This document shows, one piece after another, positions 7,497 through 10,449 of a DNA stretch of 64,000 nucleotides. Under the pieces are notes generated by a model. It was not told the origin of the DNA. It saw only the letters and a list, made by a program, of their open reading frames with translations, and did no database searches. The translations under genes were made by a program, and so were the position numbers. Every line of letters starts with the position of its first letter. Within the stretch, counting starts at the first letter, position 1. The stretch spans positions 35,976 to 99,975 of the forward strand of contig PMZI01000010.1 of assembly GCA_003170475.1 (NCBI GenBank). Direction: 5' to 3'. The stretch comes from Ignavibacteriota bacterium. Its GTDB lineage: Bacteria > Bacteroidota > Ignavibacteria > UBA10030.

Positions 7497-9515
7497 TTAC
7501 TTGTCTCCTTTCTTCTCGAGCCGTTCTATTTCATCGCGAAGCTGTGCGGCACGCTCGAATTCAAGATCCTTCGCGGCACGCCGCATTTCTTCTTTGAGCT
7601 CAGCGAGAAGATCACGGCGTTGATCCGGTGTCAGGTATTTGACAACATTATCCGATACCGAAGTCGCACGGAGGCCATCCTTGCGCGCGGTCCGTTGTGC
7701 AGAGATGTCTGCAATCGCGGTTGCTGCAAGCACTTCTTCGACTGATTTATAGATCGTGACAGGAGTGATCCCATGGTCCTTGTTATATTGCATCTGTTTT
7801 TTGCGGCGTCGGTCCGTCTCATCGATCATCCGTTCCATCGATCCGGTCACTTTGTCGGCATACAGAACGACTTTTCCGTTCGCGTTTCGGGCCGTCCGGC
7901 CTGCTGTCTGGATGAGCGAGCGCTCAGATCTGAGGAATCCCTCCTTGTCGGCATCGATGATGGCGACCAACGAGACCTCCGGAAGGTCCAGCCCTTCTCT
8001 GAGAAGATTGACCCCCACGAGCACGTCAAAATCACCAAGCCGCAAATCCCGAAGAATTTCCACGCGCTCCAAGGCATCAACCTCGGAGTGGATGTATCGG
8101 ACCTTGATGCCGATGTTTAAAAGATACTCTGTAAGATCTTCGGCCATCCGCTTGGTCAGCGTCGTGACAAGAACGCGCTCTTTCTTCTCAGCTCGGGTCC
8201 GGATCTCTGCAATCAGGTCATCGATTTGATGCTTGCTCGGCCGCACATTGATCTCAGGATCCACGAGACCCGTTGGCCGGATAACCTGTTCGACAAACAC
8301 ACCCTGGCTCTTTTCGAGCTCAAAGTCACCCGGAGTTGCGCTGACGAAGATGATTTGCTTCACCATCGAACTCCATTCGTCGAACGTCAGCGGACGATTG
8401 TCCATCGCCGAAGGAAGCCGGAAGCCGTACTGGACCAGGGTCTCCTTGCGGGAGCGGTCGCCATGGTACATTCCGCGGATTTGAGAGACGGTAACATGCG
8501 ATTCATCGATGACGGTCAGGAAGTCTTCCGGGAAGTAGTCCAACAAACAGGACGGTCGCGACCCCGGCGGTCTTCCAGCGAGATGACGCGAGTAGTTTTC
8601 GATGCCCGAGCAATGTCCGATTTCCCTCATCATCTCCATATCAAAGCGAGTGCGCTGCTCGAGCCGTTGTGCCTCGAGAAGTTTCCCCTGTTCTCGTAGC
8701 TCTGCAAGCCGTTCCTTCAATTCCACATCGATCGTCTTGAGCGCGCGTTCGATGCTTGGGCGGGTTGTGACAAACTGTTTCGCAGGATAGACGATTTCAA
8801 AATCCGTCTCAGCCAGGATCTTTCCATCGGTTTTCTGAATGATCGAGAGCCGCTCGATTTCATCTCCAAAGAACTCTATACGAAGTGCTTCTTCAATTTC
8901 ATACCCGGGGATGATCTCGACCACGTCACCGCGGACTCTGAAGGAACCCCGCGAGAATTCATAGTCGTTGCGGGTATACAACATGTCGAGCAGCTTCTTC
9001 AATATCTCGTTGCGTGAGACTTTCAGTCCCCTGCGCAATGAGAGGGTCTGCGCAAGCCATTCCTCCGGCGCACCGATGCCATAGATACAACTGACCGACG
9101 CCACGACGATGACATTTGGATCGCCGCTGAGGAGAGCGCTCGTCGCGCGCAGCCGCAGCCTGTCGATCTCCTCATTAATGGATGAATCCTTCGCAATGTA
9201 CGTATCCGTCGTCGGGACGTACGCCTCCGGTTGATAATAGTCGTAATAGCTGATGAAGAACTCGACACGGTTCTTTGGAAAGAACCCTTTGAATTCACTG
9301 TAGAGTTGAGCAGCGAGGGTTTTGTTGTGGGAGAGGACCAGAACAGGTTTGTGAATATTCTTGATGACGTTCGAGATCGTAAAGGTCTTCCCGCTTCCGG
9401 TGACCCCGAGGAGAGTTTGAAACCGATCGCCGCGTTCAACACCCTCGATCAATTGTTTGATCGCCTCGGGCTGATCGCCGCTGGGCTTGTATTCAGAGAC
9501 TAGGTCGAATGCCAT
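7497..9515 (-). CDS. uvrB: Excinuclease ABC subunit B
   Basis: [30 protein letters not shown]-terminal UVR motif. Confidence 0.98.
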
Positions 9516-9534
9516 TTGTGATTTCTGATTTCGG

Positions 9535-9992
9535 ATCTCTGATTTATGATTTTTGAAGAAACCCGTGACCAGCTATTTCTCACGCCGGTTTGCTTTAGCG
9601 GTGATTTGTGTAGCGGCAAAGCTTCTCAGAAGTTGATCGGTTTCGTCCGACATTCCCTTCACTGACGACGGATTCACTTTGTTGGTGGCAGTGAGCATCT
9701 CAATCCAGAAGAGAGTTTCGTCTACTTCCTCTTCCACGATACCTATTTTGTTGATGAAATCTGCTCGCGATCTGGAGCGGCATGCCGCACGATAGTTCGC
9801 TGCGACAGACGTCGCCGATCGGATCAACTGTCTGCTGATGACATCTGTTGATCTCCCCGGAGGAAGACTCTCGACAAAATTGATCACGTTCACCGCAAGC
9901 GCCTTGGTGCGACTTCGCAGTTCTTCAGCGTTCATCATCGAAACCACAGATGGGAATCATAAATCAAAAATCATACATCATAAATCAGAGAT
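9535..9992. mobile_element. Putative small element: four-helix-bundle gene bounded by 16-bp perfect inverted repeats
   Basis: ATCTCTGATTTATGAT at 9535-9550, ATCATAAATCAGAGAT at 9977-9992, with ORF 9573-9947 between them. Mobility is inferred, not shown. Confidence 0.45.
9573..9947 (-). CDS. Four helix bundle protein (S23/IVS-type)
   Basis: RSRTKALAVNVINFVESLP...LIRSATSVAANYRAACRSRSRADFINKIGIVEEEVDETLFWIEML is characteristic of this family. Confidence 0.88.
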   Translation of the reverse strand: MVSMMNAEELRSRTKALAVNVINFVESLPPGRSTDVISRQLIRSATSVAANYRAACRSRSRADFINKIGIVEEEVDETLFWIEMLTATNKVNPSSVKGMSDETDQLLRSFAATQITAKANRREK

Positions 9993-9993
9993 T

Positions 9994-10449
9994 CTAAGTT
10001 GCCTGTTCCTTCCCTCCGGTCCGGGCGATGAAGAGAAACGCATCACGAACGAAATCGGCGGCGTTCGCCTCGAATGCCGGAGGAAGCCCCTTCTTCAAGG
10101 TTTCGTACGGCACCGGACTTCCACCGGCGGAGATCGTCATATTTGGATTGATGATAATGGCGCGGGCAGCACCGGCGCACTTCATCATCACACTTGCTTT
10201 AATATTCGGGAAATTGGCTTCGATCACCGGATCGACGCGAACAGGAATCTTCATGATCTTCATCGTTTCCCACGAATCGGCCTCTGCGTCAATGTTCTGT
10301 GTCTTCAAGTACGCGAGGCTCTCCTGAACGCATCGGCGTGCCAGGTCTGCTACCTCAGAGGCTACAAGAAGGAATTTATCACGGTCTGCGGCGAACTTAC
10401 TCCACTCTTTCACGGTGTTGGCGAGAATGGCTTTGGAGGCTTCGTTCAT
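9994..10449 (-). CDS. Hypothetical protein
   Basis: 151-aa ORF, no clear overlapping competitor; family not recognised. Confidence 0.7.
   Translation of the reverse strand: MNEASKAILANTVKEWSKFAADRDKFLLVASEVADLARRCVQESLAYLKTQNIDAEADSWETMKIMKIPVRVDPVIEANFPNIKASVMMKCAGAARAIIINPNMTISAGGSPVPYETLKKGLPPAFEANAADFVRDAFLFIARTGGKEQAT

Follow-up and report, generated by a model that had tools for sequence, protein, structure and literature searches.

A small gene between uvrB and a gene for a 151-aa protein is enclosed by a perfect 16-bp inverted repeat in the 64-kb window analysed here, by which we mean the whole stretch of DNA under study. The locus raises the question of whether the gene and its repeats move together as a unit, as a first-pass annotation of the window had proposed, and which part of the repeats serves as the ends of such a unit. 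The gene belongs to the S23/IVP family, for which we know of no function since its discovery in 23S rRNA intervening sequences (IVSs). The repeats proved to consist of tandem heptamers, which have been reported to outnumber all other short periodic repeats between prokaryotic genes and to offer "no clear clue" to their function (PMC6344855). The tie between IVP genes and heptamers reported below, together with a repeat core that varies with the protein subfamily, opens both the function of IVP and the abundance of heptamers to test by binding assay.

Results

The inverted repeat at the uvrB site

The sequence ATCTCTGATTTATGAT and its exact reverse complement were confirmed on either side of the gene, as the first-pass annotation had reported (Table 1). 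No other 16-mer in the 64-kb window recurs in exact inverted form within 500 bp, and no such pair arose in 20 locally shuffled windows. Both copies lie within longer arms, in each of which about six degenerate heptamers (unit TnnGATT) stand in tandem; the two arrays are inverted relative to each other and read (GATTTNT)n, the left on the + strand and the right on the - strand. With up to three mismatches allowed, GATTTNTGATTTNTGATTT has ten matches in the window, nine of which are inside the two arms (shuffle mean 0.18). The first heptamer of the left array overlaps the uvrB start codon (9513-9515), and the right array stops one base short of the stop codon of the 151-aa gene (9994), a distance that the annotation had read correctly from the sequence. 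What stands out as a perfect 16-bp inverted repeat is thus where the two heptamer arrays match best, and is no discrete terminus. In the transcript of the uvrB site the arms are predicted to pair (-151 kcal/mol, z -2.4), which places an S23p-type ORF within stem-capable inverted repeats.

Table 1. Positions of the heptamer arms, the inverted repeat and the genes at the uvrB site, numbered along the window
Feature	Position	Strand	Remarks
Left (gene-distal, 3') arm	about 9513-9559	+	CATTTGT GATTTCT GATTTCG GATCTCT GATTTAT GATTTTT; lag-7 self-identity 22/28; inverted partner 9955-9992
Right (5') arm	about 9954-9993	-	AATCTCT GATTTAT GATGTAT GATTTTT GATTTAT GATTCCC; lag-7 identity 23/28
Left copy of the exact 16-bp inverted repeat	9535-9550	+	Lies inside the left heptamer array
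Right copy of the exact 16-bp inverted repeat	9977-9992	-	Exact reverse complement of the left copy
IVP/S23 four-helix-bundle gene	9573-9947	-	124 aa; "NYRAA" (B) subfamily; PF05635, TIGR02436; GTG start as listed
uvrB	7497-9515	-	Downstream neighbour, outside the element; Pfam UvrB domains
151-aa gene	9994-10449	-	Upstream neighbour; no Pfam or NCBIfam match

The repeats enclose only the S23/IVS-type ORF, as had been annotated, and its assignment is upheld by matches to PF05635 (52.2 bits; curated cut-off 33.8) and TIGR02436 (72 bits; cut-off 24). ATG starts are possible a few codons inside the listed GTG. The predicted protein is basic (pI 9.4), and its AlphaFold2 monomer model (pLDDT 93) has four helices arranged as an up-down bundle as in 2rld and 2gsc, which are its best fold matches (TM about 0.8 and about 0.77, respectively) together with Avd (4dwl, 8ub7). 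Both homologue structures, 2rld and 2gsc, have five chains per crystal entry, and the latter protein, Xcc0516, is described as five four-helix bundles in a title cited in PMC3936711. By analogy, IVP is most likely pentameric and Avd-like. The gene is under purifying selection, with dN of 0.08 vs. dS of 0.82 for the pair from genomes G002 and G005.

Arms around other IVP genes

The genome that contains the window has nine IVP matches, corresponding to eight genes, and the congeneric genomes have 6-18 matches each. Flanks were scored by the complementarity of the upstream to the downstream side, with random windows of the same locus as the control. Loci of the genus exceeded the 95% control in 30 of 37 cases, with 16 above the control maximum; arms beyond the control were also found at 18 of 30 loci from the phylum and at 21 of 28 B-type loci, and among 80 named loci from more than 12 phyla, 61 were above the 95% and 54 above the 99% control. 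Altogether, about three quarters of some 170 IVP genes examined (more than 12 phyla) sit between inverted heptamer arrays, and about one quarter have no clear arms. By a stricter control, a heptamer array was present on both flanks of 45% of IVP genes vs. 1.7% of ordinary genes with intergenic flanks. When flanks were swapped between elements, the mean score fell from 16.3 to 8.9. The period is specific: among 80 flanks, lag 7 was detected in 41 and 50, lag 8 in 7-8, and other lags in 0-3, the harmonic 14 excepted.

The annotation's expectation that further four-helix-bundle genes would be bounded in a similar way was thus borne out, in the form of heptamer arrays with differing units. Its 16-bp terminal repeat does not extend to them: the exact sequence is specific to the uvrB-site copy, and what recurs is the heptamer array. 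A conserved 16-bp terminal repeat was accordingly rejected, as the ends differ copy by copy, and a terminal repeat conserved between copies, as expected of a TIR transposon or MITE, was not found among these loci, where the unit differs per copy. Examples from cultured, annotated organisms are an IVP gene with TAGGGAG arrays between two ribonucleotide reductase genes on Nostoc edaphicum pNe_5 and one with long TTAGC-type heptamer arrays between cas6 and cas4 on Pseudanabaena galeata pPg_01 (L396, 2489-2848). IVP genes were also searched for on phages, and none was found. One A-type subgroup (L091, L092 and L101, from G005 and G004) has octamer instead of heptamer arms.

The heptamer unit follows the protein subfamily

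Each element has its own heptamer, which is common to its two arms. The arms of one element are identical at 5.1 of 7 positions in subfamily A, vs. 3.3 between elements, and at 6.0 of 7 in subfamily B, vs. 4.4 between elements. Arms typically comprise four to six units. Variant units follow one another in an order that the opposite arm mirrors only weakly (mean percentile 0.61), so the arms are no exact palindromes and unit identity is what is kept.

The unit core also depends on the protein. The common "NIAEG" (A) proteins are accompanied by the core [TC]AG[CT]nnT and the "NYRAA" (B) proteins, the type in the window, by [TG]nnGATT, the information content of both being well above column-permuted controls. 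Within one genus, A-type arms had the AG core in 33 cases and GATT/GAAT in one, whereas B-type arms had AG in two and GATT/GAAT in ten, so that the contrast between subfamilies is seen under a single genome composition. Covariation of the repeats with protein clades, which the annotation had suggested as a check, was therefore tested and found, by subfamily and also within one genus.

The uvrB site in relatives

The 151-aa gene was found in 23 of 41 relatives and adjoins uvrB in most of them, the gene order being widely kept. An IVP gene lies between the two in four of five congeners, i.e. in five of six genomes of the genus when the window's own is included. Congener G004 has no IVP gene at this site, although an arm remnant is still present beside uvrB. 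In genomes of other genera that have the 151-aa gene and uvrB in one locus, the IVP gene is absent in all, and some uvrB sites of other genera carry inverted heptamer arrays without a gene (e.g. in G014). Identity between congeners is 55-69% for the IVP proteins vs. 71-92% for the neighbouring genes. The two arms at this site have changed jointly, both being GATTTAT-like in the window and GATTTTC/GATTGTC-like in congeners.

Sites without the gene upstream of uvrB, which the annotation had proposed to look for, thus occur in G004 and outside the genus, while four of five congeners are occupied. It had also named what would speak against mobility, namely retention of the gene by all relatives with vertical descent and repeats around no other copy. 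At the uvrB site this holds in part, since four of five congeners carry the gene; the tree of uvrB-site IVPs neither shows nor excludes a single origin, and copies elsewhere are framed alike.

Movement of gene and arms

One IVP lineage (75-79% identical) with CAGAATT/CAGGAGT arms occupies the same site in G003 and G001 (L088/L090) and a different site in G002 (L100). DNA homology between L088/L090 and L100 is found only at 1474-1848 around the ORF (1501-1800); beyond the ORF it extends for about 25-50 nt and stops at the arms. The G002 copy is flanked by one ORF matching PcrA residues 11-302 and another matching residues 309-647, and has therefore split a UvrD/PcrA-type helicase gene. No intact orthologue of this split helicase was retrieved. 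Four IVP genes in G003 share 84-89% identity; two of these are separated by 1.4 kb on the same contig, and here too homology does not extend beyond gene and arms. A second intergenic site carries an IVP gene with AGACGTG arms in G002, G005 and G001, and only other heptamer arrays in G000 and G003.

Related copies at different sites, homology ending at the arms, the split helicase and site variation between species together indicate that gene and arms are mobile. The annotated mobile unit stands in these respects, as one unit whose copies move, whose sites vary and which has split a helicase gene; what has to be revised is the nature of its ends. No target-site duplication was obvious at the sites read, where the site alignments are strongly diverged. 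Near-identical IVP copies were not found in the window's own genome, and most paralogues within a genome are strongly diverged, which we count against claiming current activity. A near-identical pair in G379 was ruled out as a recent transposition, as the assembly includes the same locus from each of two strains.

Arrays without an IVP gene

Among 245 class-level genomes, tallied by hand, arrays of four GATT heptamers were detected in 62% of those with a clear B-type IVP vs. 21% of those without a hit (odds ratio 6.2, kinship ignored). Arrays of four TTAG heptamers, counted as the reversed control, gave 47% vs. 12% in the same genomes (odds ratio 6.6, kinship ignored). Gene-less arrays also stand at sites where relatives have IVP genes (L046; G000, C48). 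The density of gene-less arrays in IVP-rich vs. IVP-less genomes was compared in 20-kb samples, which held few arrays.

Three genomes of family f53 (G324, G328 and G339) have from 18 to 152 GATT heptamer array hits and no B-type IVP match; these arrays either belong to another carrier protein or have outlived it. In G000, gene-less inverted heptamer hairpins with differing units lie between tRNA genes (L066, 4273-4600; C23), and a GATT-type heptamer array is apparently located inside an rRNA-methyltransferase-like coding sequence (L069, 4018-4059; C65).

Discussion

We consider it probable that the uvrB site carries a mobile element with a single gene, about 0.45-0.5 kb long and composed of an inverted heptamer array, an IVP gene and a second inverted heptamer array, whose ends are recognised by the encoded protein. 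Arms on both sides, their convergent polarity, the protein-specific core and the movement of gene with arms all point to a mobile unit with ends recognised by the encoded ring. The basic IVP ring would bind the heptamers, and one unit per IVP subunit is plausible given the typical number of units in an arm. Five units per arm was set aside as proof of a pentamer, as the 35-nt detection window biases the count. Once bound, the ring may bring the two convergent arms together, either as DNA or as a transcript stem. Because IVP carries no known catalytic motif, copying and insertion would be supplied in trans, whether by host replication and repair or by a reverse transcriptase as for Avd, which has the same fold. 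Slippage in the arrays, combined with unit recognition, would hold the two arms of an element close to each other in sequence even as different elements diverge, and gene loss would leave solo hairpins.

Two main alternatives were weighed against this reading. A device acting at the RNA level, in which the IVP pentamer binds heptamers in its own transcript and in mRNAs with solo arrays and so controls the stability or translation of neighbours such as uvrB, would resemble the TRAP ring, which binds spaced triplets. It would suit the intergenic and probably transcribed arms, their predicted pairing, the left array covering the uvrB start region, the protein-specific core, and the transcription of most Xanthomonas heptamer arrays (PMC4692102). 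However, it leaves unexplained the movement of gene with arms, the split helicase and the presence or absence of the element between congeners, and we regard it as unlikely. If heptamer arrays instead arise and spread alone, by slippage or as recombination hot spots, and IVP genes insert into or survive in them, then the gene-less arrays at sites where relatives have IVP genes are accommodated, as are the genomes rich in arrays without a matching IVP. This model does not predict a core that follows the protein subfamily inside one genome, nor a unit common to both arms to the extent seen in both subfamilies, and appears improbable. Neither model accounts for movement and subfamily-specific core together.

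A perfect 16-bp inverted repeat is in keeping with the remnant of a conventional transposon mobilised in trans by a transposase of the DDE or HUH type, which the wording of the annotation implies, but the 16-mer belongs to longer heptamer arrays, there is no transposase ORF between the arms, no target-site duplication is obvious at the diverged sites, and the copy-specific ends largely refute this origin, to which we assign very little probability. An ordinary, vertically inherited host gene of the uvrB operon with flanking regulatory hairpins would be consistent with the conserved position in five of six genus genomes and with purifying selection; its absence from G004 and from outside the genus weakens this reading, as site polymorphism, and the family occurs at unrelated sites with 6-18 matches per genome, to which the arms follow the gene. 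It is likewise most improbable that this is all the element is.

Our preferred reading, a mobile element with heptamer ends, has its closest relatives in the 23S rRNA IVSs with an S23p ORF of Leptospira, Coxiella and others, which likewise have a single ORF of the same protein family and terminal inverted repeats that form a long stem. The Coxiella IVS carries three tandem GACAGAT heptamers directly ahead of its ORF and has been described as selfish (PMC4990558). In contrast to these IVSs, the present element lies outside rRNA, between protein genes (elsewhere in a helicase gene), and its arms consist of arrayed heptamers whose unit is particular to the element and whose core is particular to the protein subfamily. 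There is no Rfam match anywhere in the 64-kb window, and thus no location in 23S rRNA; the element is therefore classified as a dispersed, protein-gene-neighbouring variant of the IVS.

The nearest functional analogy is REP/RAYT (TnpA-REP), in which the protein is an HUH (Y1) transposase and the repeats are palindromes of 20-40 bp. One account describes a gene within inverted repeats, solo repeats elsewhere and a protein lineage matched to the repeat class (PMC8266576), all of which are features of IVP elements as well. Unlike RAYTs, IVP is no HUH transposase, and its repeats are period-7 arrays instead of 20-40-bp palindromes; no HUH (Y1) transposase gene was found between the arms, where IVP is the only gene. 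Avd of diversity-generating retroelements has the same fold as IVP (4dwl, 8ub7), with sequence identity of only about 13%, and neither a reverse transcriptase nor template/variable repeats were found among the neighbours read (uvrB, the 151-aa gene, a small lipoprotein-like ORF and peptidase-like ORFs).

Cyanobacterial STRRs and the GGGAATC arrays of Xanthomonas are likewise intergenic tandem heptamers, often of four units, and Xanthomonas has 70-75 convergent heptamer pairs per genome (PMC4692102). The papers on these repeats (PMC4692102, PMC6344855) offer no cause for them and report no link to a gene family, whereas the arrays here are tied to IVP genes; a literature search of open papers found none that links heptamer arrays to IVP genes. 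That Xanthomonas encodes an IVP, Xcc0516 (2gsc), suggests by analogy a link with its GGGAATC arrays. IVP elements may help to explain the scattered intergenic heptamer repeats of bacterial genomes. More tentatively, and with some doubt, we put forward that they could form a hitherto unrecognised type of transposase-less mobile DNA, in which the ring reads heptamer ends with one unit per subunit and protein and unit co-diversify; dispersed heptamers such as the STRRs and GGGAATC would be its gene-less derivatives, and the GxxExxY genes, with their 8-9-nt arrays, would make up a parallel class. Mobility also bears on the IVP genes that occur inside cas loci (PMC3936711), which, like the one on the Pseudanabaena plasmid, can be insertions rather than CRISPR parts, and the published associations of IVP with CRISPR may reflect insertion.

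Other small genes of the same genus were seen to have repeats of their own. Among GxxExxY/PF13366 genes (L333-L354), 12 of 15 lie between inverted short-period arrays (period 8-9; ACGCAAAG, CACGGATGA) that exceed 99% of the controls, and these may be a parallel class of single-gene element. Small GIY-YIG genes, which occur beside tRNA genes in about ten copies per genome (L063 and L064; G000, C7), were ruled out as carriers of the same arms, as they have no heptamer arrays. Two other GIY-YIG loci (L320, L332) have long imperfect inverted repeats around the gene.
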